A stretch of DNA of 64,000 nucleotides from Bradyrhizobium sp. Ash2021. GTDB lineage: Bacteria; Pseudomonadota; Alphaproteobacteria; Rhizobiales; Xanthobacteraceae. This document shows, one piece after another, positions 37,796-57,142 of this stretch (position 1 is the stretch's first letter; every line of letters starts with the position of its first letter). A program made the position numbers and the translations under genes. Location of the stretch: the NCBI RefSeq assembly GCF_031202265.1, contig NZ_CP100604.1, forward strand, positions 6,926,501 to 6,990,500. Reading direction: 5' to 3'. Under the pieces are notes generated by a model. The model saw only the letters and a program-made list of their open reading frames with translations. It was not told the origin of the DNA and ran no database searches.

Positions 37796-40700
37796 CTACT
37801 GGTGAAGCATGAAATTGTGGAACTCCGCGAAGTGGACATCTGCCGGCGTCGCGGTGTTAGTTAGTTCCAGATGATAGCTGCCAGCATCGAGCGCTGATCG
37901 GAGGCTATCCGCCATCGACATCCATTTGGTCCCTGCGTCATTGACGGTTTCGATGGCGAGGCTATCCGGGCCTCCAAAGGCGTCGGCATGGCCAAAGACA
38001 AAGCCATCCCCTCCCAAACCCGCGAGCGCAACGGGTTGCGCGGCCGGTGCCGGTTGCTGCGCCGCGACGGGCGCAAAATCGAATCTCTCCTTGGGCGGAT
38101 CAATCACCAGCGTGCCGCCGCTTCCATCGTTGGACAGATTAAACGTCGAGTGGGTGTAGTCTCCGAGAAGCGAAAGGTGCGCCGCATGATTTTGGGCATC
38201 GACCACGGTCAACACGCCGCCGGACGTGTTCCCGGAAAAGGAAGCCGACGTTCCCGTTGCGTAAGTGATATCCTTCAGATCGATGTGGCTGGAGTTGGAC
38301 GCGGTACCGTCCCCGGTCAGACCGATCAACGTTCCAGTGAACTGGGAAGCGTGGTCGAGCACTAGATTGCCGGTCGAGGCGTTGAAGGTGATTGATCCGG
38401 AAACGGCACCGGTCGACTCGAGGGTTGCGCCAGCCTCGATGGTAGCCGCTTGCGTCATGTTGCTTAGGTTCAACACGATTTTTCCGGAGATATCGAGGAC
38501 GGTGGACGAAGTATTGATCACGCCGTCGCCATTGAGGTCCTGGTAGAAAACAGCCTCGATCGATTTAAGTGACGTGTCTGTTCCCGACACGTTGTTCAGA
38601 ATTTTGGATATGAAATTGCCGTTGCTGTCTGTGGCCCACACCGCGTAATTGCCGGTGGCCGGATCCTTCCAGGCCACATCGTAGCCGCTCGACGTTGCCT
38701 CTGCGCCCACTGGCGCCCATGTGCCAAACTGCCCCGAGACGACCGCGGCGCCGCCATACTTTAACGTGGGTCCATTGCTGCCAGCAGTCGGATCGAGCAA
38801 GTAATTGCTGCCGGCCCGAACCAGTATAGTCGAGCCAGATATCTCAATTGTCGTGGTCAGAGGCGCGGGAAGGCCGATCACGCCATCGCCATTGAGATCC
38901 TGGTGGAAAACGGTCTCGATCGATTCAAGCGTCGAGTCCGTTCCGGATACGTTGTTCAGAATCTTGGATATGAAGTTGCCGTTGCTATCGGTGCTCCACA
39001 CCGCGTACTTGCCGGTGGCCGGATCCTTCCAGGCCAGATCGTAACCGCCTGACGTCGCCTCTGCACCCACCGGCGCCCATGTGCCAAACTGCCCTGCCAC
39101 AACGCTCGCGCCGCCACTTTTCAGCAAGACGGCGGCACCGGCTTTCGACAGATAAAAGTTGTTTCCAGCCTCAGTAAGCGTCGTGGTGCCAGCCGCCTCG
39201 ATTACCGTGCCGACAACCGCGTCCAGGACACCGGAGAGCTGGCTTGAATTGCCGGCTGCGTCTGTTGCGGTCGCAGTAAGATTATGCGGACCTCCGGTCA
39301 GCGCTCCGGTATAGATACTCCAGGCTCCGCTGGACGCCGCCAAGCCCGTGCCCAGCAAGGTCGTCCCTTCATATAATTTAACGGTGCTTCCCACCTCCGC
39401 CGTACCGGAAACAATCATTGCATTCGCAGAGACGAGCGTATCGGAGATAAGGCTAGGTGCATTGGGCGCGACAGTATCTACGGTGACATTCAATGCCGCC
39501 GAGGCCGCACTCACGTTACCTGCGGCATCCACAGCTTTGCCGGTGAACGTGTGGCTACCGTTGACCAGCGCTCCCGTTGCAAACGACCAGACGCCACTGC
39601 CATTGACGGTCGTCGTGCCGATCTGGGTAGCACCGTCAAGCACCTGTACCATGCTCCCCGCCAATGCGGTTCCGGTTAGGGTCACATTATTGACGTTGGT
39701 GATGCCATCGCCGACGACATTGCTGTCGGGAGAGAACGACGCCACTGTGGGCGCGGCCGGGGCGACGGTGTCGACAGTGACGTCGAGCTCGGCTGAGGGC
39801 GCGCTCAGATTGCCGCCACCATCCGCCGCGACCGCCTTAAACGCGTGGCTGCCATCGACCAGCGTTGCGGTAGCAAAGCTCCAGGTACCATTGTTGTCGG
39901 CGCTCGCTGTGCCGATCTGACTTGCTCCGTCGAATACAATGACGGTGACGCCTGCCTGCGCATAGCCGGTCAGGGTAAGATGATTTGCATTGGTGAGGCC
40001 CGCCCCGGTCGATCCGCTGCCAGCGCCGAACGAAATTGTTGGCGCGGAGAGGGCTGTCATAGTCATCGACGCGCCCGTCGCGGAGACGAACGAATAGTCC
40101 GAAGCCGTCAGCTGGGTCGTGCCCACAATATGCAGGGTATCCGCTCCTCCCGCGTAGTGAATGGTCCATACGTCGTTCACATTGGTCAGGTAGGCGCCGG
40201 CGTCGTAACCCTTCAGTATCAGCTTGTCATGCTCGGAACTCGTGCTTGTCGGAACGTGGAAGTCGGCGATCGTAACGTTACCGCTGCCCGTGCTGTAGAT
40301 GAACGTGTCGTTGCCCGCGCCTCCGTAAATCCAGTCATTGCCGCCGCCGCCATTGAGGATGTCGGCACCGCTCGAGCCCACGATGCGGTTGGCCAGCTGG
40401 TTGCCGGTGCCGGTGAGCCCGCCCATCATCAAGGTCAGGTTTTCGACGTTGGCGGGCAGGGTATAGGAGGTCCAGGCCTCGACACTATCTATGCCGCCGC
40501 CGGGATTCTCGACTATTTTCTGGTTCGCATTGTTGATGACGTAGGTATCGTCGCCGGTCCATCCGACCAGCGTGTCATCGGTATTCACGGCGGTGATCTT
40601 GTCGTTGGCCGACGTGCCGTAGACCGTGTGGCTGCTCGCGCTTCCGTTGATCCAGGATGTGATCGTGCCGCCGACCGGAAGAGATCCAGGCAGCTGGAAA

Positions 40701-43048
40701 TCATCACTGGTAAAGGCCGAGATCGTGGTGTTGCGAAAGACCAGCGTATCCTGATTTGTCAGCGCCAGATAGACGTCGTTCCCAACCTGCGTCATGGCCG
40801 CGCTGACGTCGCTGAACGAAGTGAAGGCAAAGCCGTTGAGCTGAACGACGTCGTGCCCCGCCCCCGAACCCGGCGTGAAATCGGTGATGATGTCCGAACC
40901 GTCGCCGGCATTGATGACAAAGGTATCCGCGCCACCGCCGCCGGTCAGGATGTCGTTGCCGAGCCCGCCGGTGATGACGTTCGCGGCATCATTGCCGATG
41001 ATGATGTTGGACTGCGAGTTGCCGGTGGCGTTGATGGCGGCCGAGCCCGTGAGCGTCAGGTTCTCGACATAGTCGGGAAGCTTGTAGGTGACGGACGACT
41101 TTACCGTGTCGACGCCGCCGCCATAGCCTTCGACGACCTTGGCGTTCGAATCGGAGACGATATAGGTGTCGTCGCCGCCGCCGCCGGTCATGGTGTCGGC
41201 GCCTCCTGCTCCGTCGATCAGATCGTTGCCCGATGTGCCGGTCAGCGTGTCGGCACTCGCGGTCCCGGTGATCGTGCTGGTCGGAGTTCCGCTGGTGAGC
41301 AGCGTATAATTCGCGAGCGTGTATTCCGGCAATTGATACGCGGTGATCGAATCGATGCTCACCGTCGCCGTCGCGTCGGGCGCGGCATTGCCGGCCCAGC
41401 TCCCGCCCATGGCAAGGTTGGCGATCATGTACATCGCCGTGTTCATATCGGAGGGGGTGGCCACCTGCCCCACTTCGGCGCCATCCACCAAAAAGGTCAG
41501 CGTGTACGGTGTCCATTCCACCGCGAACGTATGCTGGCCCGCGGTCAGGTTGGCGGTATTCGACCAATATCCCTGGTCAGGTGTGGTCGAGGATCGGAAG
41601 CCCCAATGCGACTGGTCGGGATGCGTGCCGAGCGCTTCGAGCACGTCGAGTTCGGTCGAGAGACCGTGCGGGTTGGTGGGCAACATCCAGAAGGCAGGCC
41701 ACGCGCCGGGCGTGCCGGACAGCGTGGCCGTCATCTGAAAATGCCCGTAGGTCTGAGCGAAGCTGTTCTGGGTCGAGATCATGCCCGACGAGAACTGGTG
41801 GCCACCGGCATAGGCCGCGTCGCTCGCAGGCAGCGGCTGCGCGGTAATGACGAGATGGCCGTTCTGGATCGAGAACGGATTGAGGCCGAGCGGCGCCGAA
41901 GCTTGGGTTCCCGGCAATCCCGAAAAGCTCGGGTCGACGTAGATCTGCTGCTCGCCCGCCAGCGAGTAACTCGCCGCACCGCTCCAGGCATAGCTTGTGC
42001 GCCATGTCAGATGCGGGTCCTGGCCCGCGGAGAGCGCGTTGAAATCGTCGTTGAAGGTCTGCACCAGCCCGGTGGGCTGCGTGACGATATTGACGTTGGC
42101 CGCGGTGAAGTTCTCGACTTTGGTGTTGTTGAGCCTGAGGGTTTCGCCGCTGATTAGCGTAAGGACGGTGTCGGTCCCGACCTGCTTCATGGCGGCGGTG
42201 ACGTCGGACAGCGTCCGGAAACCGGTGCCGTTGAGTTGCAGGATGTCGCCGCCGGCGCCGGTCGTGAAGTCGGTAATGATATCGTTGCCGTTGCCCACGG
42301 CGATGACAAAGGTGTCGATGCCGCCGCCGCCGTGGAGCACGTCATTGCCCTTGCCGCCGTCGATGACGTTGTTGCCGGCATTTCCGATGATGATGTTGTC
42401 GAGATCGTTGCCGGTCGCAGGCGATGCGTAGCTGCCGCCCAGGATCAGGTTTTCGACGTTCGGCGCGTTGACGAGGCTGTAGCCGTCGATCATCCCATCG
42501 TTGATGGTATCGATACCCTGGCCGCCCTGCTCGACGACCTTGGTGTTGTGGTCGTACATGAAGTAGGTATCGTCTCCCGCGCCCCCGATCAGGGTGACCC
42601 CGGTTCCGAGCGCCTGCAGGGAGTCATTCATCGCACTTCCGGTCAGCGTGCCGCCGGCCTGGACCGTTAGCGCCGCCGTGTTCGGCGAGGCGCTGCCCTG
42701 AAGCGGATTGTCGAGGACGACATTGGACGCGACGAGAGAGGAGAGCGCGATGTTCTGCAACGTCAGCGTTTCAGTACTCGACAGGGTGACGACCGTATCG
42801 GAGCCCACCTGCGTGGCGGCTGCAACGAACTTTGCGAAGTTCGCAAACCCGTAATTCTGGACGCGCAGGACGTCACCGCCGACGCCGGCCTGGAAGTCGC
42901 TGATGGTGTCCGAGCCGTAGCCCTTCGAAATCGCGAAAATGTCACTGCCGGCTCCTCCGGTGAGAAGGTCATTTCCGGTGCCGCCGAAGAGAATGTCGGA
43001 TCCAGAAGTTCCGACGATGACGCTCGCGTAGGTTGGGTTTGTTGTCAT
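37796..43048 (-). CDS. RTX-type secreted GH16 glycanase with Ig-like and Trp-rich repeats
   Basis: About 1750 residues. RTX calcium-binding nonapeptides (GGTGNDLLTGGAGSD, GGKGNDVLHGGGG and later GGLGNDILTGGGGAD, GGGGNDWIYGGAGND) recur in blocks near residues 10-30, 215-250, 605-715 and 890-915. A GH16 domain lies at about 350-600, with the catalytic ELDVLEALG near 467. Then come three Ig-like repeats (about 1000-1320) and two repeats resembling W_rich_C (GYDLAWKDPATGKYAVW, FHQDLNGDGVIG). No N-terminal signal is present, so type I secretion through a C-terminal signal is expected, but no exporter of that kind is next to it. It probably cleaves an exopolysaccharide, like ExsH or PlyA. The start is the ATG at 43048 with aaaggag 13 bases upstream. 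Confidence 0.88.
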   Translation of the reverse strand: MTTNPTYASVIVGTSGSDILFGGTGNDLLTGGAGSDIFAISKGYGSDTISDFQAGVGGDVLRVQNYGFANFAKFVAAATQVGSDTVVTLSSTETLTLQNIALSSLVASNVVLDNPLQGSASPNTAALTVQAGGTLTGSAMNDSLQALGTGVTLIGGAGDDTYFMYDHNTKVVEQGGQGIDTINDGMIDGYSLVNAPNVENLILGGSYASPATGNDLDNIIIGNAGNNVIDGGKGNDVLHGGGGIDTFVIAVGNGNDIITDFTTGAGGDILQLNGTGFRTLSDVTAAMKQVGTDTVLTLISGETLRLNNTKVENFTAANVNIVTQPTGLVQTFNDDFNALSAGQDPHLTWRTSYAWSGAASYSLAGEQQIYVDPSFSGLPGTQASAPLGLNPFSIQNGHLVITAQPLPASDAAYAGGHQFSSGMISTQNSFAQTYGHFQMTATLSGTPGAWPAFWMLPTNPHGLSTELDVLEALGTHPDQSHWGFRSSTTPDQGYWSNTANLTAGQHTFAVEWTPYTLTFLVDGAEVGQVATPSDMNTAMYMIANLAMGGSWAGNAAPDATATVSIDSITAYQLPEYTLANYTLLTSGTPTSTITGTASADTLTGTSGNDLIDGAGGADTMTGGGGDDTYIVSDSNAKVVEGYGGGVDTVKSSVTYKLPDYVENLTLTGSAAINATGNSQSNIIIGNDAANVITGGLGNDILTGGGGADTFVINAGDGSDIITDFTPGSGAGHDVVQLNGFAFTSFSDVSAAMTQVGNDVYLALTNQDTLVFRNTTISAFTSDDFQLPGSLPVGGTITSWINGSASSHTVYGTSANDKITAVNTDDTLVGWTGDDTYVINNANQKIVENPGGGIDSVEAWTSYTLPANVENLTLMMGGLTGTGNQLANRIVGSSGADILNGGGGNDWIYGGAGNDTFIYSTGSGNVTIADFHVPTSTSSEHDKLILKGYDAGAYLTNVNDVWTIHYAGGADTLHIVGTTQLTASDYSFVSATGASMTMTALSAPTISFGAGSGSTGAGLTNANHLTLTGYAQAGVTVIVFDGASQIGTASADNNGTWSFATATLVDGSHAFKAVAADGGGNLSAPSAELDVTVDTVAPAAPTVASFSPDSNVVGDGITNVNNVTLTGTALAGSMVQVLDGATQIGTTTVNGSGVWSFATGALVNGSHTFTGKAVDAAGNVSAASAALNVTVDTVAPNAPSLISDTLVSANAMIVSGTAEVGSTVKLYEGTTLLGTGLAASSGAWSIYTGALTGGPHNLTATATDAAGNSSQLSGVLDAVVGTVIEAAGTTTLTEAGNNFYLSKAGAAVLLKSGGASVVAGQFGTWAPVGAEATSGGYDLAWKDPATGKYAVWSTDSNGNFISKILNNVSGTDSTLESIETVFHQDLNGDGVIGLPAPLTTTIEISGSTILVRAGSNYLLDPTAGSNGPTLKYGGAAVVSGQFGTWAPVGAEATSSGYDVAWKDPATGNYAVWATDSNGNFISKILNNVSGTDTSLKSIEAVFYQDLNGDGVINTSSTVLDISGKIVLNLSNMTQAATIEAGATLESTGAVSGSITFNASTGNLVLDHASQFTGTLIGLTGDGTASNSSHIDLKDITYATGTSASFSGNTSGGVLTVVDAQNHAAHLSLLGDYTHSTFNLSNDGSGGTLVIDPPKERFDFAPVAAQQPAPAAQPVALAGLGGDGFVFGHADAFGGPDSLAIETVNDAGTKWMSMADSLRSALDAGSYHLELTNTATPADVHFAEFHNFMLHQ

Positions 43049-43418
43049 GATGGATTGTGTGCTCCTTTGCGCCACAACCATCACAAAGGCGTTCAAGCCG
43101 GTTTATGAATTTCGGGAAAAATTGAAGCATGCGGAAGAAGGCGCGGTGCCTCGTTCAAGTTTCTTCCAAGTGCACGCGCTCACGCGCAATCCATTGCGGG
43201 CAAGTTCCTGGAGAGGAACAGCGTGTGCAACAACAGTTTAGACCAAATCAGAGCGTGAATCCCGATCGTTCGCGAAACGCCGGCTTCACGGTCGCGCCTT
43301 CAGCTCCAGACCTGATCCGTAGTACTACGGGCCCAGGAAACGACGGCGCGATCTCGACGCACGTCGTCGCGGAATTTTCGAATTCCTGGTTTGCGCTGAG
43401 TTGCCGCGCAAGGGAAGT
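43049..43418. other. Intergenic region between RTX glycanase and ABC exporter genes
   Basis: About 370 bases without a credible gene. It should hold the promoter of the RTX glycanase gene and the end of the transcript of the ABC exporter operon. I see no clear terminator hairpin. Confidence 0.4.
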
Positions 43419-45248
43419 TCAACGTCCGGTTCGGAGGGCTTCCACCCGAAGGTTCCGCGCAAAGGGGCTGCCGGAGTCCGCCCGCAGCTTCGCCGGAGAT
43501 CCCTGCGCGCAAACCCGGCCGGCCTCGAGGCACACCACGTGATCCGCGTCGAGCACGGATTCCAGGCGGTGGGTAATGAGCAGCAAGGTCCGGCCCTTGA
43601 ACTGCTGCTGGATTGCTCGCTTGACACTCTCCTCCAACGAGCGATCGAGCGCGCTCATGGCCTCGTCAAGGATCAGGAACTCAGGATTACGGACAATCGC
43701 GCGGGCAAGTCCAATACGCTGACGCTGTCCGCCCGAAAAGCGCATGCCGCGCTGCCCGATCCAGGTGTCGTACTTGTCGGGCAAGGCTTCAACGATGTCC
43801 GAAATACCCGCTACGCGCAACGCGTGCAAAATCTCCTCCTCCGAGGCGTCGTTCTTCGACATCCGCACATTGTCGATCACGGTGCCTTCAACAAGATCGA
43901 CGTCCTGGCCGGCAATCGCGAGCAGACCGAGCCAGTCGGTTCGGCGGAGATCTTCAAGGGGACGACCATCAACCCTGATGCTTCCCTCGGTCGCCGAATA
44001 AAGTCCAAGCAGAAGGTTCACGACCGTGGTCTTGCCCGCCCCGCTGGCGCCGACGAGCGCGGTGATCTTGCCTGCCGGAATGTCAAAGGAGACATCGTGA
44101 AGCGCGGAATCCGATTCTGCGTCGTAGCGGAAGGAGACATTGCGAAACGAGATGTTGCCGCTAAGCCCGCTGATCGCGACGTGTCCCGGCTTCGGGTATT
44201 CCTTGTCGTCCTTCGCCAGCATGAGGCGGATGGAACGCAGCTGTGGCTCGATTTGCGCCATATATAACAGGCTGGTCTCGAGCTCTCGCATGTGTGGCTG
44301 CAATCGATAGAGCAAGGCTACCGCTGTAAGGCTGGTCGCAAACCCGATTCCCCACATGTCGGCGGAAGCGATAACGAGGCAAAGCACCACCAGATATCCA
44401 ACTTCCGTAAGCGGAGACACCAGCGCGGAAAGGCGCGCAAGTCCAAGTGCGACCCGGCGCGCCTCCGCTGACGCACCCTCGAAGCGCTCCTGATGCACCT
44501 TCTCCTGGCCATACGCACGGATCGTACGCATGCCCTGAAGGGTCATCAGCATATGCTCTCCCAGTTTCTGATGGACCACCTTCACCCCGCCGCCGAGCTC
44601 CTGCATCGGCCTCGAAAGGCGACGCAGCCCGGCAGATACGACCAACGATGCAGCGATAGCCATAACCGTGATCTTCAGCGAGAGCGCAAAGAGAAATGAC
44701 ACGAAGAGAAAGATCGAACAGGAGCTGACGATGATGCGGGTAAGGCTGCTGTAGGCCCCCGCGATCAACCATGTCTCGGTCCCCAGGACCTCCATGAGGT
44801 AGGCCTCGTCATGGCGCTGAAAGAACGAATATGAGGTCGACAGATATTGCAGGTGAACGCGGTTGCGCGCGACCTCATTGATCTGCTCGCCAACGCGCGC
44901 GCTGATCAGCGTATTGGCGAAAGCCAGGGCGCCGCGCACAACGATCAGAAGAAGCACCACCAGAGCGGTCTCGGTCGAGCTGTGAAACCAGGTGGTCGCG
45001 TGCCGCAGCGCATCGCCCAGGACGCCGCTTGTCGACGTGGCGAGCTCGACCTGCCCCATGGCGAGATAGAAGAAAAGCAGCACGAGCGTGATGCCAACCG
45101 TTTCCGCCAGCGACGAGGCCAGGCCAAGGATGATCAGCAGAGGCGTTGCCCAACGCGGCAGCGGAGTCACCTTGAGGAGCCGCCACAGCTCGGCCAATGC
45201 CGCGCGTCGCGCGGCTCTCGGCCTGTTCATGTCGCCAGCGTCTAACAT
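43419..45248 (-). CDS. ABC exporter (fused membrane and ATPase domains)
   Basis: A 609-residue half-transporter of the MsbA/ABCB class. Residues about 40-330 hold six helices (for example WATPLLIILGLASSLAETVG). The ATPase has Walker A GASGAGKTTVV (about 403), signature RFSGGQRQRIGLARA (about 504) and Walker B EFLILDEAMSALD (about 525). As the last gene of the operon, it probably exports a lipid-linked glycan or its modified subunit. Two starts compete: ATG 45248, which overlaps the preceding stop (atgttag), and ATG 45230. An upstream extension of the frame is antisense to the GT2 gene. Confidence 0.88.
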   Translation of the reverse strand: MLDAGDMNRPRAARRAALAELWRLLKVTPLPRWATPLLIILGLASSLAETVGITLVLLFFYLAMGQVELATSTSGVLGDALRHATTWFHSSTETALVVLLLIVVRGALAFANTLISARVGEQINEVARNRVHLQYLSTSYSFFQRHDEAYLMEVLGTETWLIAGAYSSLTRIIVSSCSIFLFVSFLFALSLKITVMAIAASLVVSAGLRRLSRPMQELGGGVKVVHQKLGEHMLMTLQGMRTIRAYGQEKVHQERFEGASAEARRVALGLARLSALVSPLTEVGYLVVLCLVIASADMWGIGFATSLTAVALLYRLQPHMRELETSLLYMAQIEPQLRSIRLMLAKDDKEYPKPGHVAISGLSGNISFRNVSFRYDAESDSALHDVSFDIPAGKITALVGASGAGKTTVVNLLLGLYSATEGSIRVDGRPLEDLRRTDWLGLLAIAGQDVDLVEGTVIDNVRMSKNDASEEEILHALRVAGISDIVEALPDKYDTWIGQRGMRFSGGQRQRIGLARAIVRNPEFLILDEAMSALDRSLEESVKRAIQQQFKGRTLLLITHRLESVLDADHVVCLEAGRVCAQGSPAKLRADSGSPFARNLRVEALRTGR

Positions 45249-46240
45249 CGAGATTGATTGGGGTCGCCGATCAGAAACGACGGCGGCGGCCGTCGGAGCT
45301 CTCTGTGCCGCAGACCGCGGGACATCCACCACGCCGCAGAGGCAATATCCCGCGGCAGACCGAGCGCGACGACCTTGACGGCCAACAAGGGGTTCCGCCG
45401 GCCTAACAGCGCGAGGACCGATGCAAAGTACCCCAATCGGCCGCCGATCAGCGCTCTTCGAAGCAGCCATCGGGCGTAGTTGCTGATTCCCCGATCCAGC
45501 AGGGCAACGCGATCGGGATGGCGAGCCGCCATCTCGTCCGCAACCAGCATCCAGGAGCGGAACATCCGAGTCATGTCGCTGGACATATTGTTCGGCAGGT
45601 AACGGTAGCCGATCTCATATTCAGGAACCACCGCGAAGTGATACGCTTCCGCAACCCGGCAATAGAACAGCAGATCTTCGCACCCCTGCGCACCCGACGC
45701 CCGGAGGCCGCTCTCGAACCCATTTGCAGCAACCAGGGCTTCTCGGCGGACCATTGCCGAACTTCCGTTGCCGATGAAATTGCCTTCGAACAGATAGTCC
45801 AGCACCTCGCCCGCATGGTAGACCGGATCGGATTTGACGTTCACGCGGCTCTTCGCATCAATCCAGGCGTACCAACTGTAGACGAGGCCCGTCCGCTCTC
45901 CTCCATCAATCATCACCTGGAGCTGTCGCTCGATCTTGGACGGCGCCCACAGATCATCGGCGTCGATGAACGCAATGAATTCCGCACGAGCTGCCTGCCA
46001 TCCGACGTTGCGAGCCGCCGCCACGCCTGCGTTGCCCTGCCTCATGATCTTGATACGGGGATCCTGGTCCGCATGCCGCTCGGCGACGGCGAGCGTGTCA
46101 TCGGTCGAGCCGTCGTCCACCACGATGATTTCGAGCCGTTCGTGCGACTGGGATCGGACGCTGCGAAGCGTTTCGTCGATCGTCGCGCCGGCGTTGAAGG
46201 CCGGAATGACTACACTGACCAGGTGCGTACCGGTACTCAT
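45242..46240 (-). CDS. GT2 glycosyltransferase
   Basis: A 332-residue family-2 transferase. The GT-A core begins VSVVIPAFNAGATIDETLRS, with the nucleotide-binding VVDDGSTDDT and the metal-binding IDADD (about residue 94). Its C-terminal part holds a basic helix-rich region. It adds a sugar of unknown identity to the growing glycan. It overlaps the trifunctional gene by four bases (ATGA) and the ABC exporter start by seven, showing translational coupling. Confidence 0.9.
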   Translation of the reverse strand: MSTGTHLVSVVIPAFNAGATIDETLRSVRSQSHERLEIIVVDDGSTDDTLAVAERHADQDPRIKIMRQGNAGVAAARNVGWQAARAEFIAFIDADDLWAPSKIERQLQVMIDGGERTGLVYSWYAWIDAKSRVNVKSDPVYHAGEVLDYLFEGNFIGNGSSAMVRREALVAANGFESGLRASGAQGCEDLLFYCRVAEAYHFAVVPEYEIGYRYLPNNMSSDMTRMFRSWMLVADEMAARHPDRVALLDRGISNYARWLLRRALIGGRLGYFASVLALLGRRNPLLAVKVVALGLPRDIASAAWWMSRGLRHRELRRPPPSFLIGDPNQSRC

Positions 46241-49170
46241 TGATACTGCTCCAGGCAGTGCACAAACGCGTCCAGACTACGATCTCCTCTGACTTCGATA
46301 CGCGGCAAATCGAGCAGATCATCTTTCAAACTGGCAGCCCGGTCGGCCGTGTTGAATACGGATTTATAGCCGCACTCCGCCGCAAGAATTCTGAACCGCT
46401 GATCGGTGCATCCAAACGGAGCCGCAAGCGACGTCGTCGGCCGCCCCAGCCACGTCTCCAGCTGAATACGAGACCGTAGCAGTTCTTCCGCAAGTTCCGA
46501 GCTTGAGAGCCGATCGCTTCGAGGATGGCGCGCAAGGTGACTGCCAAACATTGCACCTTCGCCGGCAAGCGCGACAATCCTGTCGGCATCCATCAGCGGC
46601 GCAGGCGTTCCGAACGATGTATCCCACTCCGCCCGCCGGCCCGCCAGATCAGTGACAATGAACACCTCGGCGGACAGATCATTGGCTTTCAATACAGGCC
46701 ACGCCTGTTCGGCAAAATCCTCATATCCGTCGTCGAAGGTGATCAGCAGCGGCCTGCCCTCAAACGGGCAATCGTTTGCGACAAACCATGCCAGTTGCTC
46801 CGAGTTGATCGTATGGTAGCCGTTTCTGCGCAACCACAACATCTGCTGCGCAAACGCATCCGGATCGACGCGATAGCGCGCGAGCTCTTCCGGTCCATCG
46901 GTCGCGATCCGATGGTACATCAAGATAGGAACGTGCGTGCGCCGCTCCGATTGCACGACCTCCGATCGGAGCCTAACAGCGCCATTCCACACGATGAATC
47001 GCGCAACCTCGCTTTCAATCGGCGCCTCTATTCGCGCAATCGTGACCTGCGGACCCGGCGCGACCTCGCCCGGCTTCAGTCGCCTGTAGCGATCGACGCG
47101 ATAGAGCTCGGTTTGTATCGATGCTTCAAGCGCAAGATCGGGCAGCTGTGCCATCACCCGCGCAATCGTCTCGGCCCCGTACGGATTCTCCCAATCGAAC
47201 CCGGTCCGGTCTCTGTTGTCCTTCAAGACGAAACTGTGCGCCGTTATGAGATGACCGCCAGGACGCAAAGCCGCCGCGATTCTTTGTGCGACAAGCGCCA
47301 ATTCGGCTTGGTCATTCAGGTAGTAAAGCACCTCGGAGCAGCAGATGAGATCCATCTCGCCGGGGAGAGGGTCGGCCGACAGATCAAGCTTGAGAAAATC
47401 CACATTGCAAATTCCGCTGCATCGCAGGCGAGCCCGCTCGAGCGCTTTTGGTGAAATGTCGGATGCCAGTAGGTGCCCGACTTTCGTCGCCAGTGGCCGG
47501 CTAAAATGCCCTTCCGCGCATGCCAGCTCGATGGCGCGTTCCGCCGGTTCAGGCGGCAGCAATTCCAGTTGCCGCCGATATTTCTCCTGCTCGTAGGGCG
47601 AGCCGTAGTTCCAGGGGTCTTCTTTTTGAAAGAACCTTTCCCAGAACAACTCACGTCCAACGTCGCGTGGGCCTTCTTCAACGGCATGGCTCTCCCTGCC
47701 ACCAGACATCGGGGCGCTTGAAGCGGGCCTTGACTTGGCTTCGCTCGACACACGGTCCTGCAACACCTGCAGACGATGCTGATGACCATCCGGGTTGCTG
47801 CGCGCAAGCTGCCGAAAACGTCTCATCAACTTGGCTGGTCGGCTCGGAGATCGCCGGCGCTTGCGGACTTGAATATGCAAATGAGCGAGGTGCTCGTGAA
47901 CAAGCTTCGTCCAGAACTCGACATCCACCGCGCCGAGCAGCCCGACGTCGAGCAAAGCCAGTATTTGCGGTCCATCGCAAATGTAGACGTAAAGCCGGTC
48001 CACATGATTGGGCGGGCAGAACGCCGGAAGCTGCCGAAGATCGACGCGGAGGCCGAGTGTCAGAGCAAGTTCGCGCGGAGCCGAAAGGTCGTCGTAGTCG
48101 AGCAGCATGCGCTCAAATCGGTACTGGACCTTTCGGGCTTCCGCCGGATCGTTCCAGGCCCGTCCGATTGCGCTGATCAGTTCGGTCACATGCGCGCCAA
48201 ACAGCGTCCAGCGACTGGCCAACTTCGCCGGCGTTGCCCGGGCACCCACCGCGATTGCGTCCAGCAGGCAAAAGGCGATCTGATCCGCCGCTGTCTCTGA
48301 TTGCGGTATGTCGGCAAAAACTTCGCTTGAAGGACGGCTCCCCGTCCCGCGGACGCAATTTATGCCGCGGCACCAAAGTGCAAAATAGGCATGTGCTGCC
48401 GCCTGCGATCTTCCGTGCGCGGCAGATGCTCCGTTTTGATGCTCCGGCGCCGGGTTCTCCACCCGTTCGTCGATGGAAAATCCGCGAGCAATAACAACAT
48501 TCCCATCAGCCAGCATTTGCCGGAGGTCGCTGGACAGGGAATGCTCGCTTGACCAATAATAGCTCAGCAACTCATCGACATGGATCCAGCTGCCGCCGGT
48601 TCGCGCAACCCGCTGCCACAGGTCCCATTCCTCGCAGGTGCGAAGTTTGACGTCAAAACCACCAACTCCCAGGACGGCGCTTTTCTTGACAAGGACGCTG
48701 TGAACGGCAACTGGGCAGCTGCGCGCGAAAGCTTCAAATGGATTGATAGCAACTCGTGCATTGCTGTAGCGAGGCGTTTGGTCGCCGTCAGGCGTGACTC
48801 GACAATGATCGCAGCACGCGGCGATCGCAGAAGGATTTTCATCCAGCGCCGCGTTCATTTTGACCAGAAATTGCTCGTCAATCCAGTCGTCGCTATCGAG
48901 GAACAGAAGCCGTTCTCCGTTTGCGTTAGAAAGGCCGACATTGCGGGCCGTCGATACACCCCGCCCATCGGATTTGAGGGCAACAAAGCGGGCATCTCGC
49001 ACCGCATACCCGTCAACGATAGCGGGCGTTGCATCGACAGAGCCGTCGTCAACGATCAGGGCTTCCCATCTCGGGTCGGTTTGGGCCAGCAGGCTTTCGA
49101 GGGTACGAGCGATGGTTTTCTCGGCGTCGCGAGCGGGGATTACGATCGACGTGAGCGAACCGGCCGTCAT
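46237..49170 (-). CDS. GT2 glycosyltransferase / NodS-like methyltransferase / polysaccharide deacetylase fusion
   Basis: A 977-residue protein with three catalytic modules. Residues 1-230: GT2 (TSIVIPARDAEKTIARTLES, LFLDSDDWIDEQF). Residues about 505-690: SAM-dependent methyltransferase like NodS (EDPWNYGSPYEQEKYRRQLE, AIELACAEGHFSRPLATKVG, LICCSEVLYYL). Residues about 750-960: NodB-type deacetylase, with the metal Asp pair in LLITFDDGYEDF, the two His in GSHLARHPRSDR and the LAAPFGCTDQ loop. All three motif sets look complete. The 230-505 link has no known domain. In Nod factor synthesis, the same three activities (chain glycosyltransferase, N-methyltransferase, deacetylase) are separate proteins. 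Substrate here is unknown. It overlaps genes on both sides by four bases. Confidence 0.9.
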   Translation of the reverse strand: MTAGSLTSIVIPARDAEKTIARTLESLLAQTDPRWEALIVDDGSVDATPAIVDGYAVRDARFVALKSDGRGVSTARNVGLSNANGERLLFLDSDDWIDEQFLVKMNAALDENPSAIAACCDHCRVTPDGDQTPRYSNARVAINPFEAFARSCPVAVHSVLVKKSAVLGVGGFDVKLRTCEEWDLWQRVARTGGSWIHVDELLSYYWSSEHSLSSDLRQMLADGNVVIARGFSIDERVENPAPEHQNGASAAHGRSQAAAHAYFALWCRGINCVRGTGSRPSSEVFADIPQSETAADQIAFCLLDAIAVGARATPAKLASRWTLFGAHVTELISAIGRAWNDPAEARKVQYRFERMLLDYDDLSAPRELALTLGLRVDLRQLPAFCPPNHVDRLYVYICDGPQILALLDVGLLGAVDVEFWTKLVHEHLAHLHIQVRKRRRSPSRPAKLMRRFRQLARSNPDGHQHRLQVLQDRVSSEAKSRPASSAPMSGGRESHAVEEGPRDVGRELFWERFFQKEDPWNYGSPYEQEKYRRQLELLPPEPAERAIELACAEGHFSRPLATKVGHLLASDISPKALERARLRCSGICNVDFLKLDLSADPLPGEMDLICCSEVLYYLNDQAELALVAQRIAAALRPGGHLITAHSFVLKDNRDRTGFDWENPYGAETIARVMAQLPDLALEASIQTELYRVDRYRRLKPGEVAPGPQVTIARIEAPIESEVARFIVWNGAVRLRSEVVQSERRTHVPILMYHRIATDGPEELARYRVDPDAFAQQMLWLRRNGYHTINSEQLAWFVANDCPFEGRPLLITFDDGYEDFAEQAWPVLKANDLSAEVFIVTDLAGRRAEWDTSFGTPAPLMDADRIVALAGEGAMFGSHLARHPRSDRLSSSELAEELLRSRIQLETWLGRPTTSLAAPFGCTDQRFRILAAECGYKSVFNTADRAASLKDDLLDLPRIEVRGDRSLDAFVHCLEQYQ

Positions 49171-50318
49171 TTCCGCTTCCCCTCGTGGTGATAGAAGCGA
49201 ATGCCGGACACACAGCCGGCTATCTCCTCGTTGAGAAAACGGTCGTCAATGCGCTTGCGACCGATGGCTCTGCGAAGCAGCCGATAAGAATACCAGGCCG
49301 GAAGATACAGGTACGCACGCACCCGGTTTTCTGCGAGCGCCGTTCGTTCATATTGGACCAGTAGGGCCGCAACGTGGCCTCGCATGTAATAATAGATTTG
49401 GCTTGCGAGCGCCTCCATTGTCCGTCGGTGAGAATGGAAGGCCACAGCAGAAGGTGCGTAGCGGCACTTATGGCCACTTGCGAGCAGTCGGTACCAATAT
49501 TCCGAATCTCCAGAGCAGCCCGCTTGGCCTACATCGAGACGCTCGTCGAAAAGACCGACCTTTTCAAACACGTCGCGGCGGAAAGCCATGCTGGCTCCGG
49601 CACCGACATCCCACGCGGGGAAAGCGCCGCTGAAGCATGAGCTATCGAAGTCTTGCTCCCGATAGCCTTTGCCAAATCCCCAATAGGTCTCGAAGTGCCG
49701 TTGCGCCTCGGTTGCGAGTTCTGCCGGAAGCACGAGCCCGGTCACGGCGGCGACCTGTGGCTGATCGAATGCGGCCACCAGCCGCTCCAGCCAGTGGGGG
49801 TGAAGCAGGACGTCGTCGTCGGTAAAGGCCACAATGTCGCTGGTTGCGCGAAGCACGCCGGTATTGCGGGCGACATCGAGCCCTGGCCTGTCTTCGCGTA
49901 TATAGATGACTCCCTCGGCCAGCGCGACATCCCGCGTCCGCCGATCCCGTGACGCATTATCGACCACGATGATCTCACGCGGCCGGCAGCTCTGCCTGGG
50001 CAACGACGCAAGGCATGCGGCCAGCTCATCCGGCCGGTCCCGCGTGCAGATCACCACACTTGCCGAGACAGTCGGCCTGACTTGCCTTTGCAGTTCATCC
50101 TTGATTGCCAGCAGGTAGTCGGCGTCGACGTGATCGATGTTCGAGCCGGTCCGTTGCCCCTCGTGCACCAGCACGTGGCCGATCGGACGGTCACCGTGCC
50201 AAAACACGGTCATGCCCTCGCGCAATGTTGTTTCGGCAATGTCCGCGGGCAACGTCACCGCCACGTGCGTGACGCCCTCCCCTAACGGCAGGCATGCGAT
50301 GGAAGCGAGCGTGGTCAT
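49167..50318 (-). CDS. GT2 glycosyltransferase with N-terminal extension
   Basis: A 383-residue transferase. About 85 residues of unknown fold precede the GT2 core (ASVVICTRDRPDELAACLAS, VVDNASRDRRTRDV, FTDDDVLLHPHWLERLVAAF). An aromatic acceptor region near 230 (GFGKGYREQDFDSSCFSGAF) may define the sugar specificity. It overlaps the trifunctional gene by four bases and starts 12 bases after galE, so they form one operon. Confidence 0.88.
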   Translation of the reverse strand: MTTLASIACLPLGEGVTHVAVTLPADIAETTLREGMTVFWHGDRPIGHVLVHEGQRTGSNIDHVDADYLLAIKDELQRQVRPTVSASVVICTRDRPDELAACLASLPRQSCRPREIIVVDNASRDRRTRDVALAEGVIYIREDRPGLDVARNTGVLRATSDIVAFTDDDVLLHPHWLERLVAAFDQPQVAAVTGLVLPAELATEAQRHFETYWGFGKGYREQDFDSSCFSGAFPAWDVGAGASMAFRRDVFEKVGLFDERLDVGQAGCSGDSEYWYRLLASGHKCRYAPSAVAFHSHRRTMEALASQIYYYMRGHVAALLVQYERTALAENRVRAYLYLPAWYSYRLLRRAIGRKRIDDRFLNEEIAGCVSGIRFYHHEGKRK

Positions 50319-50330: not shown

Positions 50331-51314
50331 TCAAACGGGCGGATGACGGTCCCGCCACTCAAGGGCGGTCTCGATGATGAACTCGATATGGGAGTGCTGC
50401 GGCCGCCAGCCGAGCTCTCGCTCGGCCTTTGCGAACGATGCAACGAGCTTGGGGGGATCGCCCTCACGACGCGGACCGCGGCGCACGACCAGCTCGGTCC
50501 TGGCGACACGCCTCACCGCCTCGATCAATTCGAGCACGCTGGTGCCGACGCCGGTACCCAGATTGAACACATGAGTGCCGCCCCGCTCGACCAGCATTTC
50601 GCCTGCGAGCAAGTGGGCTCGCGCGAGATCGTTGACGTGGACATAATCCCTGATGGCGCTGCCGTCGGGCGTCGGAAAATTCGTGCCCAGGACTGTAAAT
50701 GGCCGATCGGTTCGGCGCGCGGCCTCGATCGCGAGGGGGATGACGTGGGTTTCGGGCTCGTGTCGCTCGCCAATTTCTCCCTCCGGATCAGCACCAGCGG
50801 CGTTGAAATAGCGCAAGGAAACAGATCCGATGCCGTAGGCCCTGCCAAAGTCCTCCAACATTCGCTCGATGATCATCTTCGACCAACCGTAGGGGTTGAT
50901 CGGCGCCTGCGGATGGCTTTCATCGATGGGAATGTGCTGGGGGACGCCGTAACTGGCGCAAGTGCTTGAGAACAGGATATGGCGGCATCCCGCCGCACGC
51001 ATGCCATTCAGCAGCGCAAGCGTGCCAGCGGTGTTGTTCTCGTAGTACATCGCCGGATTTTCTACCGACTCGCCAACGTAGGCGAACGCCGCAAAATGCG
51101 CGACCAGATCCGGCTCATACTTTTCCAGCGCGCCACGCACCTCGAGTGGATCGCGAACATCGCATTCCACGAGGGGGCCCCAACGCACCGCGTCGCGCCA
51201 GCCGCGCGAGAGGTTATCGAGCGTCACCACATTCCAGCCAGCCTTGGCGAACGCCTTGCAGCAGTGGGAGCCCACATATCCGGCACCGCCGGTGACCAAT
51301 ACCGTCCTGGTCAT
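50331..51314 (-). CDS. galE: UDP-glucose 4-epimerase
   Basis: A 327-residue SDR epimerase that interconverts UDP-glucose and UDP-galactose. The NAD-binding VLVTGGAGYVGSHCCKAF is at residues 5-22, and the catalytic SSTCASYGVP and YGWSKMIIE pair is near 116-150. A GalE-type C-terminal part (SIRYFNAAGADPEGEIGER, RDYVHVNDLA) follows. ggagagg precedes the ATG. It is first of the operon and would supply UDP-galactose for the glycan. Assigned by motif; closely related epimerases could use other UDP-sugars. Confidence 0.85.
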   Translation of the reverse strand: MTRTVLVTGGAGYVGSHCCKAFAKAGWNVVTLDNLSRGWRDAVRWGPLVECDVRDPLEVRGALEKYEPDLVAHFAAFAYVGESVENPAMYYENNTAGTLALLNGMRAAGCRHILFSSTCASYGVPQHIPIDESHPQAPINPYGWSKMIIERMLEDFGRAYGIGSVSLRYFNAAGADPEGEIGERHEPETHVIPLAIEAARRTDRPFTVLGTNFPTPDGSAIRDYVHVNDLARAHLLAGEMLVERGGTHVFNLGTGVGTSVLELIEAVRRVARTELVVRRGPRREGDPPKLVASFAKAERELGWRPQHSHIEFIIETALEWRDRHPPV

Positions 51315-52961: not shown

Positions 52962-54176
52962 ATGAAGATCTTCGTCCACGACTACGCGGGGCACCCGTTC
53001 CAGGTCGATCTCAGCCGCGAACTGGCCGTTCGCGGACATGAAGTCAGCCACGCGTATTTCCACGGCGACCTCGGCCCGAAGGGCAAGCTCGAGAGATCGT
53101 CCGTCGATCCCGATCGCCTGTCCTTTACCGGAGTGAAGCTGTCCCGCCCCTACGACAAAGCGTCCTTCGTGCGCCGCAGGTTCGACGATGTCGCCTACGG
53201 AAAGGCGGTTGCAAAACTGGTGCATTCGGACAAGCCGGACATCGTTATCTCCGGCAATACGCCGACGGAGGCGCAATCGGCCATCGTCAACGCGTGCAAG
53301 CGGACCGACTCGAAGTTCGTGTTCTGGGTCCAGGATTTCTACAGCGTCGCCGTATCGCAGCTGTTGCGCAAGAAGCTGGGGCCACCTGGCGCCATGATCG
53401 GAGCCTACTATCGGTTTCTTGAGCGGCGGCAGTTCCAGAGCTCCGATGCGGTCGTCGTCATCACGAACGCCTTCTCGCCTCTCGCTGCGAGATGGACCGG
53501 CACCGAAGCCAACGTCTTTGTGATCGAGAATTGGGGTGCGCTGAACGATATCGCGCCTTATCCGAAGGACAACGAGTGGGCACGCCGATACGGGCTGTAC
53601 AACTCGTTCAACTTTCTCTATTCGGGCACGCTTGGGCTGAAGCACAATCCGGACCTCCTGGTACAGCTCGCCAGGGCGGTGAAGGGACGCGCCAACGTTG
53701 TGACCGTCAGCCAGGGCGTTGGTGTCGCACATCTCGAGCAAGCCAAGGCCGAGCTCGGGCTCGACAATCTCATCCTGCTGCCGCTGCAGCCTTTTGCGGA
53801 TCTTCCCCTGGTGCTCGCCACCGCGGACGTCGCCGTTGCGACGATCGAACCGGAAGCGGGAATATTCTCGGTGCCTTCAAAGGTTCAATCCTATTTCTGC
53901 GCCGGACGTCCAGTCCTGCTTGCAGCACCCAGGGAGAATCTTGCTTCCGATCTCGTTCGCCGCAATGGCGCCGGATTGGTCGTTGATCCCGTCGATCAGC
54001 CGGCCTTTGTAAAGGCTGCCTTGCAGCTTCTCAATGACGAAACCTTGAGAGCAAATGCCGCGGCCAAGGCGAGGTCATTTGCGCTCGAAAATTACGACAT
54101 CAAAGCGGTAACGGACCGATTCGAAACAGTATTTGACTATGCTATCGATGCGACAACTGCGAAAAGGAAAATCTAA
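52962..54176 (+). CDS. GT4-type (WbuB-like) glycosyltransferase
   Basis: A 404-residue GT-B transferase. The N-terminal half has MKIFVHDYAGHPFQVDLSRE, where the Gly-rich substrate loop is reduced. The C-terminal half has FLYSGTLGLKHNPDLLVQLA and VPSKVQSYFCAGRPVLLAAP, the EX7E-like and PSK...Y..AG.P region seen in WbuB/WcaI relatives. It is the first gene of an operon; its stop codon overlaps the next ATG (taatg), so the two are coupled. Confidence 0.85.
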   Translation: MKIFVHDYAGHPFQVDLSRELAVRGHEVSHAYFHGDLGPKGKLERSSVDPDRLSFTGVKLSRPYDKASFVRRRFDDVAYGKAVAKLVHSDKPDIVISGNTPTEAQSAIVNACKRTDSKFVFWVQDFYSVAVSQLLRKKLGPPGAMIGAYYRFLERRQFQSSDAVVVITNAFSPLAARWTGTEANVFVIENWGALNDIAPYPKDNEWARRYGLYNSFNFLYSGTLGLKHNPDLLVQLARAVKGRANVVTVSQGVGVAHLEQAKAELGLDNLILLPLQPFADLPLVLATADVAVATIEPEAGIFSVPSKVQSYFCAGRPVLLAAPRENLASDLVRRNGAGLVVDPVDQPAFVKAALQLLNDETLRANAAAKARSFALENYDIKAVTDRFETVFDYAIDATTAKRKI

Positions 54177-55168
54177 TGGCGACGAAGAACATACCCACCG
54201 CTCTTGTCTGCGGCGCAGGTGGTTTCATTGGTGGGCACCTCGTCAAGCGGCTAAGGCGTGAAGGCTTCTGGGTGCGTGGCGTCGACCTGAAATTTCCGCC
54301 ATTCGCGGAGACCGAGGCCGATGATTTCGTGGTCGGCGATCTTCGTGATCAGAATTTTTGCCGACAGATCACCGACCGAAAGTTTGACGAGGTGTATCAG
54401 CTCGCCGCCGACATGGGCGGCGCCGGCTACATCTTCACTGGCGAACATGATGCCGACGTGATGCACAATTCGGCAACCATCAATCTCAACATGCTGGACG
54501 CCTGCCAGAAGCGGAACGTGCGTGGAATGTTCTATTCGTCGTCGGCCTGCATGTATCCGGAGCATAACCAGAAGGATCCCGACAATCCGAACTGCGCGGA
54601 AGATTCGGCCTATCCGGCGGCGCCCGACAGCGAATATGGCTGGGAGAAGCTGTTTTCGGAGAGATTGTATCTCGCCTACAACCGAAACTATGGAATGCGA
54701 AACCGCGTCGCGCGCTATCATAACATCTTCGGGCCCGAGGGCACCTGGGAAGGCGGCAAGGAGAAGGCGCCCGCTGCGGTCTGCCGCAAGGTTGCCCAGG
54801 CCTCCAATCATGGCGAGGTCGAGATTTGGGGCGACGGCACCCAGACGCGCTCGTTCCTCTATATCGATGAATGCCTGGAAGGCACGATCCGCCTGACGCG
54901 GTCGGACTTCGAAGGTCCCGTCAACGTCGGGTCGGAGGAGATGGTCACGATCAACCAGCTCGTCGATCTCGTCTCCGACATCGCCGGCAAGAAGGTGATC
55001 AAGAAGCACATCCCCGGTCCGCTCGGCGTGCGCGGCCGCAATTCGGACAACCGCCTGATCGGCCAGAAGCTTGGCTGGAAGCCGTCCGCGACACTCCGCT
55101 CCGGTCTCGAGAAGACCTATGAATGGATCGAACGGCAAGTTCGCAGCAATACCAGGGCGGCCGCTTAA
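54176..55168 (+). CDS. GDP-mannose 3,5-epimerase-like NAD-dependent epimerase
   Basis: A 330-residue extended SDR. NAD binding is in VCGAGGFIGGHLVKRLRREG, the active site in SSSACMYPEHN (about residue 120) and YGWEKLFSERLYLAYNRNYG (Tyr about 154). The blocks ADMGGAGYIFTGEHDADVM, RVARYHNIFGPEGTWEGGKE and GPLGVRGRNSDNRL match the pattern of plant GDP-mannose 3,5-epimerase, which makes GDP-L-galactose and GDP-L-gulose. I infer the same chemistry; other GDP-sugar epimerases are possible. manC at 31497 can supply GDP-mannose. It starts inside the stop codon of the GT4 gene. Confidence 0.8.
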   Translation: MATKNIPTALVCGAGGFIGGHLVKRLRREGFWVRGVDLKFPPFAETEADDFVVGDLRDQNFCRQITDRKFDEVYQLAADMGGAGYIFTGEHDADVMHNSATINLNMLDACQKRNVRGMFYSSSACMYPEHNQKDPDNPNCAEDSAYPAAPDSEYGWEKLFSERLYLAYNRNYGMRNRVARYHNIFGPEGTWEGGKEKAPAAVCRKVAQASNHGEVEIWGDGTQTRSFLYIDECLEGTIRLTRSDFEGPVNVGSEEMVTINQLVDLVSDIAGKKVIKKHIPGPLGVRGRNSDNRLIGQKLGWKPSATLRSGLEKTYEWIERQVRSNTRAAA

Positions 55169-55253
55169 GGCGGCGGCCCAAAGCCGGCCACGTTCACAAG
55201 ACGATGGCCGGCACGATCATTTGGAGGCCTTGATGTAACAAGCAGGTGCTTCA

Positions 55254-56081
55254 ATGGTTGCAGACTTGATCTACGACGTTGGACTGCACAAGGGCGAAGA
55301 CACGGCGTTCTATCTCAAGAAGGGGTTCAGGGTTCTCGGGATCGAGGCCAACCCTGAGCTCGTCCAGCACTGCCAGGCGCGGTTTCGCAACGAAGTCGCG
55401 AGCGGGCAATTGCGGATCATCGAGGGAGCAATCGCGCCGGAGTCCGAGGGACCCACGATCACCTTCTACAAGAGTTCGGACTCCGTGCTGAGCACGATCA
55501 ACAGGAACAGGGCCGAGCGCACCGAGAAATTGGGCCACAAGAGCGAATGCATCGTGCTGCCGCGCCTTGACGTTGTCGAAATCTATCGCTCCTGCGGCGT
55601 GCCATATTTCCTCAAGGTCGACGTCGAGGGAGCCGACCAGCTGGTATTGCAGGGACTGAAGCAGCAGCCTAACCGCCCTCAATATGTCTCGGTCGAGTCC
55701 GACAAGGTCGACTTTGACGAGGTTGAGGCGCAGCTCGGCCTGCTGCGCGAGCTTGGCTACCGGAAGTTCAAAGCCGTGCAACAGCAGCGAATTCCGGGAT
55801 CGCGGGTTGAGACCAGGGCGCTTGACGGCTCAAAGGTCGCGCATGTCTTCGAAGGCGGCGCCTCCGGTCCGTTTGGCGAGGATCTCGGCGGTGATTGGCT
55901 GGACTTTGACGGCATCATCCGCCGCTACCGATCGATATTCCGCGACTATCGGTTCTTCGGCGACGACTCCTTGCTGGCCAAGTTTCCTGTTTTGGCCTTG
56001 CCGTTCAAGGCCGCCTATAAGCTCTTTACGGGCCAACGCGGCTCGCTGCCCGGATGGTACGATACCCATGCCAGCCTGTAG
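55254..56081 (+). CDS. FkbM-family methyltransferase
   Basis: A 275-residue protein with an FkbM SAM-binding fold: LIYDVGLHKGEDTAFYLKKG (motif I), FRVLGIEANPELVQ and the PYFLKVDVEGADQLVLQGLK block that marks the family. It likely O-methylates a sugar of the glycan. A gap of 85 bases separates it from the epimerase gene. aggtg lies eight bases before the ATG. Acceptor unknown. Confidence 0.85.
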   Translation: MVADLIYDVGLHKGEDTAFYLKKGFRVLGIEANPELVQHCQARFRNEVASGQLRIIEGAIAPESEGPTITFYKSSDSVLSTINRNRAERTEKLGHKSECIVLPRLDVVEIYRSCGVPYFLKVDVEGADQLVLQGLKQQPNRPQYVSVESDKVDFDEVEAQLGLLRELGYRKFKAVQQQRIPGSRVETRALDGSKVAHVFEGGASGPFGEDLGGDWLDFDGIIRRYRSIFRDYRFFGDDSLLAKFPVLALPFKAAYKLFTGQRGSLPGWYDTHASL

Positions 56082-56164
56082 ACAGCGCTCCGAGATCGCC
56101 GCCGCCGGGAGGAGAACACCGGCTGTCATTCTCCCCCGCCTTTTGACATGCGCAGGACCTGATT

Positions 56165-57142
56165 GTGGATGCTGATCCAACCACCGAGATCGAGGTATCG
56201 ATCGTAATCTGCACGCGCAATCGTGCGAGCCGCCTGTCGGGAACGCTGGGCGCGCTGCGGGCGCTGAGCACCAGTCACGGCTACGAGGTGATCTGGGTGG
56301 ACAATGCATCGACCGACGATACGGCGGCCGTGCTGCAGCGTGCGTTCGCCGACGACACGGTTTCGAGATACATTCTCGGCCGGCGAATAGGACTGGGCGC
56401 TGCCCGCAATCTTGGCTGGAAAAACGCGCGCGGCAGGATCGTCGCCTTCACGGATGACGACTGCTATCCTTCGCCCGACTATGTTGACGCCATCCTCGCG
56501 GCGTTTGCCGATCATCCCGGCGCAGGGGTGATCGGAGGCCGTATTCTGCTCTACAATCCGAACCACGCCAGGATCACGATCGAGGAAAGTGAAGCAACGC
56601 GCGTTTATCCAAAGCGGACCTTTGTCAGGGCTGGGACGCTGCAGGGCGCAAACCTCGCATTTCGGCGCGAGGCGCTGCAGGCCATCGGCGGCATCGATCC
56701 CGAGCTCGGCGCGGGCACGCGCTTCCCCTGCGAGGACATTGATGCGGTGACTGCGGTGCTATGGGCGGGATTCGATGCCTGCTTCGACCCCCGTCCGACC
56801 GTGCAGCACGACCATGGCCGCTCCGCAGCGGAGGTTCCGGCGTTGCTCCATTCCTATGATCGCGGCCGCGGCAGCTTCTATGCCAAGTACATCCTGCGGC
56901 CCGACACCCGCGCGACCTTCATCCTGCGCTGGCTCAGCTCGACCTGGCGCCGGCGCGACTGGCAAGGGCTTCGTACACTGCGGACCGAGCTGCGCACAGC
57001 GGCGCAATACGCGATCGCCAAACGCAGATTTGGAGCGCTTGCCCTCGCTGTCCCGCTGGGCCTCATTGCGCTCGCAGTGCAATCTGTCGTGTCATTTGGC
57101 TTCTCTTCCGGGCGTCACTTTCGGGAGACAAGGAGCCGGTGA
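56165..57142 (+). CDS. GT2 glycosyltransferase
   Basis: A 325-residue transferase with a GT2 core (VSIVICTRNRASRLSGTLGA, VDNASTDDTAAVLQ, FTDDDCYPSPDYVDAILAAF). After the core come basic residues and a C-terminal hydrophobic helix that may bind the membrane (LALAVPLGLIALAVQSVVSF). The start is a GTG at 56165; no ATG is close. It belongs to the operon begun at 52962. Confidence 0.85.
   Translation: MDADPTTEIEVSIVICTRNRASRLSGTLGALRALSTSHGYEVIWVDNASTDDTAAVLQRAFADDTVSRYILGRRIGLGAARNLGWKNARGRIVAFTDDDCYPSPDYVDAILAAFADHPGAGVIGGRILLYNPNHARITIEESEATRVYPKRTFVRAGTLQGANLAFRREALQAIGGIDPELGAGTRFPCEDIDAVTAVLWAGFDACFDPRPTVQHDHGRSAAEVPALLHSYDRGRGSFYAKYILRPDTRATFILRWLSSTWRRRDWQGLRTLRTELRTAAQYAIAKRRFGALALAVPLGLIALAVQSVVSFGFSSGRHFRETRSR

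Follow-up and report, generated by a model that had tools for sequence, protein, structure and literature searches.

A fused glycosyltransferase, NodS-like methyltransferase and deacetylase in a Bradyrhizobium glycan locus, and the association within Rhizobiales of NodS-like methyltransferases with two types of de-N-acetylase

The Nod factor enzymes NodC, NodB and NodS are separate proteins in rhizobia. In a 64,000-nucleotide stretch of the Bradyrhizobium sp. Ash2021 genome (contig NZ_CP100604.1, positions 6,926,501 to 6,990,500; hereafter the window), a GT2 glycosyltransferase, a NodS-like methyltransferase and a NodB-like polysaccharide deacetylase are joined in one chain, the trifunctional fusion protein (TRI). 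What might such an enzyme make, and does it belong to the Nod machinery? The architecture is real, widespread and already catalogued by NCBI, and is hence not new. What is new is the association of NodS-like methyltransferases with two types of de-N-acetylase within the order to which Bradyrhizobium belongs (Rhizobiales).

As the original prediction had it, the fusion is a single 977-residue protein. Its frame lies on the minus strand and runs uninterrupted, with zero internal stops, and every motif quoted for it (LFLDSDD, AIELACAEGHFS, TFDDG and HLARHP) was found. Three Pfam families matched above their cut-offs: PF00535 (residues 8–120); PF05401, NodS (511–672), whose 65.1 bits against a cut-off of 24 place the domain in the NodS-like superfamily; and PF01522 (805–937; 68.3 bits, cut-off 23.1), with the D-D and H-x3-H residues of CE4 deacetylases kept. 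Residues were compared across 55 aligned sequences, the window's own included (50 of the best 120 homologues and five further loci). The GT2 residues D92, D94, D95 and E180 are kept in all 55, as are D813 and D814 of the deacetylase; H878 and H882 are kept in 54, the remaining row being gapped at that place. All 52 aligned rows that retain the methyltransferase domain keep E548, D571, E613 and Y616. Domains, neighbouring genes and conserved residues thus bear out three joined, apparently intact modules in a glycan locus. The two faults that might have undone this picture, a split frame or lost catalytic residues, were not found: full-length relatives occur in many assemblies, and the key residues are near-invariant in the alignment.

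By sequence, the solved protein closest to the methyltransferase is NodS, ahead of the phospho(methyl)ethanolamine N-methyltransferases, and the deacetylase has PplD, PgaB and IcaB as its nearest solved relatives, with which it shares the CE4 fold and the metal-binding residues. VIA matches of the GT2 domain are K4CP, heparosan synthase, WrtF and TarS/TarP. PgaB, IcaB and PplD act outside the cytoplasm. The deacetylase of the fusion, in contrast, is one domain of a protein in which hydropathy analysis, N-terminus included, found zero segments above the transmembrane threshold. Cytoplasmic reactions ahead of export are therefore more likely than the modification at export that had been suggested as an option.

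A search with the fusion returned 1440 homologues at E ≤ 0.001, of which we inspected the best 120, the query's own row included. Read from the table of matches, the three domains occur together in 114 of these 120, so that the fusion, which was thought possibly to exist elsewhere, does; the full set is missing from P0014, P0026, P0052, P0073, P0078 and P0099. Many rows carry the NCBI name 'trifunctional glycosyltransferase/class I SAM-dependent methyltransferase/polysaccharide deacet...' (SAM, S-adenosylmethionine). These proteins have the length and domains of the fusion, with identities of up to 84% among the NCBI-named rows listed, and with GT2, class I methyltransferase and CE4 in one chain the fusion belongs to the same family. 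We found no study of the family's function in a literature search that left most subscription journals outside its reach. The named hosts among the best 120 include many Bradyrhizobium and Mesorhizobium; further hosts, Chthonobacter and the Calothrix group, were seen in genome contigs. Matches to the fusion were present in 11 of 397 genomes of the order (E ≤ 1e-60) and in 2 of 194 genomes of the phylum of Calothrix (E ≤ 1e-40). Bradyrhizobium erythrophlei carries a full-length relative 96% identical to the window's protein. Thirty proteins are methyltransferase-only relatives. Eighteen of them lie on contigs shorter than 5 kb and may be fragments; the remaining 12, on longer contigs (for example P0124, P0127, P0130 and P0132), may be free-standing genes or split frames, and we make no claim that this methyltransferase always occurs fused.

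NodS-like methyltransferases were surveyed in the 397 genomes of the order (PF05401 matches at E ≤ 1e-11, with at most seven candidates scored per genome), which yielded 53 matches in 46 genomes: six true NodS (at least 250 bits), 11 copies of this CE4 fusion and 36 others. The 42 non-fusion loci were examined with flanks of 6 kb, or less near contig ends. A CE4 motif lies no further than 2.3 kb from five of the six true NodS genes; for the sixth, which carries an internal stop, the stretch contains none. The 36 others (L136–L171, with L124, the same gene as L161, counted once) behaved differently in kind: 27 have a same-strand PIG-L motif no more than 1 kb from the middle of the methyltransferase frame, and a CE4 motif was near none of the 36. 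Six of the 27 calls (L142, L145, L147, L151, L166 and L171) lie inside PF02585 matches. PIG-L is rare, with 59 matches in 101 genomes. Of 123 FkbM methyltransferase matches, 30 served as control loci (mean length 3.4 kb), and neither a PIG-L nor a CE4 motif occurred in any of them; other stretches totalling 223 kb held no PIG-L motif. The folds of PIG-L and CE4 are unrelated.

The PIG-L gene pairs thus resemble the fusion in setting a NodS-like methyltransferase beside a de-N-acetylase motif, with a GT2-type family in 18 of the 36 loci. They differ from it in the type of deacetylase and in the position of their methyltransferases, which fall, with the nine motif-less ones, in a tree group of their own (95/96). 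Two families each recur in 18 of these 36 loci: the scanned member of one is a GT2, and that of the other (412 residues) has no Pfam match. NodS formed its own clade (100/100); TRI was a separate, moderately supported group (80/86, or 87/94 once outgroups were added). A sister relation of NodS and the fusion's methyltransferase was neither favoured nor rejected (approximately unbiased test, p-AU 0.53), and the outgroups sit on very long branches. The L171 and L144 methyltransferases, also on very long branches, were included in the first tree and in all counts and left out of the second, for which L117 gave no usable outgroup. D518-P519-W520, E527, E613 and Y616, all outside the SAM motifs, are common to the fusion, NodS and the PIG-L group, which suggests that the three share one substrate pocket.

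Three of the best 120 homologues (P0052, P0073 and P0078) keep the GT2 domain, the middle region and the deacetylase, while the methyltransferase is absent in frame. The junctions at the missing domain differ in all three, as expected if methylation were a last, optional step. Absence of the deacetylase family was seen in a single one of the 120 rows, P0026, which is probably cut short, because half of the deacetylase is present and the contig spans 3980 bases. This pattern fits a deacetylation that precedes an optional methylation.

We therefore consider a soluble, cytoplasmic three-module enzyme that would build one modified sugar residue. The GT2 module would transfer an N-acetylhexosamine to a lipid-linked glycan begun by other transferases, the CE4 module would then strip the acetyl group from it, and the NodS-like module would N-methylate the freed amine. 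The finished glycan would be moved across the inner membrane by the ATP-binding cassette (ABC) exporter encoded two genes downstream. Such a product is plausible, since rhizobial O-antigens are reported to contain N-methyl 6-deoxy sugars commonly (PMC4153317). We infer the sugar, the order of the steps, N- over O-methylation and the lipid-linked acceptor, and judge this sequence of transfer, de-N-acetylation and N-methylation before export to stand just short of an even chance.

Several points weigh against it. The donor of the GT2 domain cannot be deduced from its sequence. RumA, a C-methyltransferase, is among the weaker sequence matches of the methyltransferase, and MMAR_2193, labelled NodS-like, O-methylates polyketides (PMC8730385); the fold therefore does not prove N-methylation. 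Nine of the 36 other NodS-like genes of the order have no de-N-acetylase motif nearby. In other orders of the class, the three NodS-like loci examined (L123, L125 and L126; about 1.5 kb on each side) had neither motif, and the pairing may therefore be a habit of this order, within which it is clear by motif and outside which it is unproven. The pairing counts rest on motifs and take no account of shared ancestry among the loci, and test and control loci had flanks of different size. The methyltransferase absences in P0052, P0073 and P0078 were seen at the protein level. In genus g66, three of the four fetched stretches (L107–L109) hold the fusion gene without GT2 or ABC neighbours within about 20 kb. 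The predicted deacetylation followed by methylation in one machine thus draws support from the association within the order and from the loss of the methyltransferase only, and loses some to the three loci outside it.

A different use of the same modules would be that the methyltransferase O-methylates a sugar hydroxyl and is chemically unlinked to the deacetylase, the three decorations being merely fused. O-methyl sugars are also known in rhizobial O-antigens (PMC4153317), and MMAR_2193 is itself an O-methyltransferase (PMC8730385); the loci without a de-N-acetylase motif, within the order and beyond it, point the same way. However, the strong tie to two de-N-acetylase types within the order argues against an unlinked reaction, as do the residues of the presumptive pocket that NodS, the fusion and the PIG-L group have kept. 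We regard O-methylation as unlikely, though it is the alternative that fares best.

Alternatively, by analogy with WbdD of Escherichia coli O9a, the fusion might add and mark the last residue of a chain whose finished form the ABC exporter recognises. WbdD, which gates ABC-dependent export, consists of a kinase and a methyltransferase that is structurally closest to NodS (PMC3482155), so that both proteins would fuse a NodS-like methyltransferase to another glycan-modifying enzyme in a setting of ABC-dependent export. In one cyanobacterium (L207), moreover, the fusion gene adjoins genes of the Wzm/Wzt type, for an ABC-2 permease and for an ATPase that bears a Wzt_C domain. WbdD differs, however: it has a kinase, methylates a phosphate and terminates chains, and the fusion has a GT2 domain and a deacetylase. 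The window's exporter is of the MsbA/HepA type, with no Wzt_C match in a Pfam scan; some fusion genes have no neighbouring exporter; and the methyltransferase can be absent from homologues that keep the rest, which one would hardly expect of an indispensable stop signal. A terminator role therefore appears somewhat less probable again than O-methylation.

Could the fusion be a NodC, NodB and NodS in a single protein that makes a Nod-factor-like lipochitooligosaccharide? The three types of activity are the same, and among solved proteins the methyltransferase matches NodS best. Yet the source genome, rated 100% complete, has no NodC above the family cut-off (best 104 of 550 bits), and the fusion reaches 79.6 of the 300 bits of the NodS equivalog model NF041650. 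It also occurs in cyanobacteria, and the Pfam scan of the module genes found no acyltransferase family. Nod factor enzymes are separate, whereas the fusion is one chain with a non-NodC GT2 domain. With NodS and TRI also in separate tree groups, the label 'lipochitooligosaccharide-like' holds as an analogy only; by these sequence comparisons the fusion is not Nod machinery, and a Nod-factor-like product is very improbable. Inactive modules or a frame that is an assembly artefact can be dismissed almost entirely, an assembly accident being unlikely because many assemblies contain full-length relatives built in the same way, and the catalytic residues being near-invariant.

Between the GT2 domain and the methyltransferase, the original prediction had seen a linker (230–505) with no recognised domain. 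No Pfam family matches there; most of it is nevertheless folded in the predicted structure. Residues ~216–430 are modelled confidently (predicted local distance difference test, pLDDT, mostly 76–96), with helices within 216–359 and strands within 371–410, and within 230–505 the pLDDT falls below 50 solely at 436–457 and 483–505. Modelled alone, the middle region reached a pLDDT of 80.7, and a Foldseek search with it against the PDB gave zero matches at E ≤ 0.001, which is no evidence for a new fold. In an hhalign comparison, the helical part proved homologous to its counterpart in the Calothrix proteins (probability 93.6, E 2.1e-7), and the GT2-helical-methyltransferase-deacetylase chain therefore looks like a single ancestral fusion. 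By eye, GT2b seemed to share a beta subdomain at its N-terminus with the middle region; hhalign did not support this, and the idea was dropped.

The fusion gene stands in the run GalE, GT2b, fusion, GT2a and ABC exporter, followed by the GH16/RTX protein (Table 1). The two GT2 genes and the ABC exporter are its recurrent neighbours, Calothrix included. GT2a-type and ABC neighbours are present in five of eight alphaproteobacterial stretches (L106 and L110–L113 among L106–L113), and the GH16/RTX/W_rich_C protein in eight of nine Bradyrhizobium loci (L021–L029). In L109, the fusion-type frame spans 741 residues and the GT2 part is missing.

Table 1. Positions of the fusion protein, its parts and the neighbouring genes in the window.
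Feature	Position	Strand	Basis or remark
Trifunctional fusion protein (TRI), 977 residues	46237..49170	minus	ATG to stop, Pfam domains, homologues
GT2 glycosyltransferase domain, residues 8-225	48496..49149	minus	PF00535 1.5e-28
Middle region, residues 226-435: helical, then small beta part	47866..48495	minus	no Pfam family
Linker, residues 436-505, poorly ordered save helix 463-477	47656..47865	minus	pLDDT
NodS-like class I SAM methyltransferase domain, residues 506-700	47071..47655	minus	
CE4 polysaccharide deacetylase domain, residues 740-977	46240..46953	minus	
GT2 gene GT2a	45242..46240	minus	4-bp overlap (ATGA) with fusion gene end; recurrent neighbour
GT2 gene GT2b	49167..50318	minus	4-bp overlap (ATGA) with fusion gene start; recurrent neighbour
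MsbA/HepA-type ABC exporter, membrane and ATPase domains fused	43419..45470	minus	PF00664, PF00005
UDP-glucose 4-epimerase GalE, upstream in same run	50331..51314	minus	TIGR01179 393 bits, cut-off 262.3
GH16/RTX/W_rich_C protein, downstream	37796..43096	minus	Pfam

The Calothrix locus (L031) is arranged as GT2a, ABC, GT2b, GT2b and fusion. Identities to the window genes are 41% for GT2a, 35% for ABC and 34% and 50% for the two GT2b genes; by part, the fusion is 44% (GT2), 47% (methyltransferase) and 42% (deacetylase) identical. The corresponding values for L112 (genus g28) are 48% (GT2a), 35% (ABC) and 49% (GT2b), and 35%, 55% and 46% for the three parts of the fusion. The cyanobacterial copy is thus little more distant than that of another genus of the order, which suggests that the fusion locus was transferred between phyla.

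The best NCBIfam match of the window's exporter is HepA of the heterocyst envelope (HEP) island, though its 347.8 bits lie under the 725 cut-off of the HepA model (NF045513). In the Calothrix group (G397, G398 and G399), the fusion-adjacent exporter is in each of the three genomes the second-best HepA match after the true HepA, and in G397 the fusion module is 4.6 Mb from true hepA. The gene alr2836 spans 969 bases (PMC2211374) and is therefore not a fusion. Membership of the HEP island (PMC2211374, PMC4390870) was rejected on these three grounds: the exporter's score, the location of hepA in the Calothrix group, and alr2836.

Related chains were also seen in other arrangements. Near the trifunctional gene of the cyanobacterium L207 lies a 981-residue protein (L207:4566-7511) with GT2 domain, middle region, about 340 residues without a Pfam match and a deacetylase, and no methyltransferase. 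A Nitrospinae metagenome-assembled genome (L035:9719-12800) encodes GT2 and deacetylase in separate frames, with a 208-residue frame without a Pfam match between them, no methyltransferase, and an ABC-2 permease beside them. The window itself holds a second glycan block (52962-63135), with group-1 glycosyltransferase, sugar epimerase, FkbM methyltransferase and GT2 genes, a pyruvyltransferase-like protein, a MOP flippase and a Branch-type transferase. Its genes up to 59449 are present in most of L021–L027; the rest fall mostly past the fetched flanks.

More broadly, and more tentatively than for the reaction sequence itself, we propose that NodS-type methyltransferases may be makers of N-methyl amino sugars, paired repeatedly with de-N-acetylases of two unrelated folds. 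The fusion would be the most compact form of this pairing, common to rhizobia and cyanobacteria: one protein that puts an amino sugar into an exported glycan, frees its amine and N-methylates it, and from which the methyl step would have been lost repeatedly by clean in-frame loss of the module. If this is true, rhizobia and some cyanobacteria are predicted to have N-methylated amino sugars in their glycans, and a large family that NCBI has already named would gain a testable function. The symbiosis enzyme NodS would then join a wider class of methyltransferases that follow de-N-acetylases, and the N-methylation of Nod factors would be a particular instance of a broader glycan chemistry.

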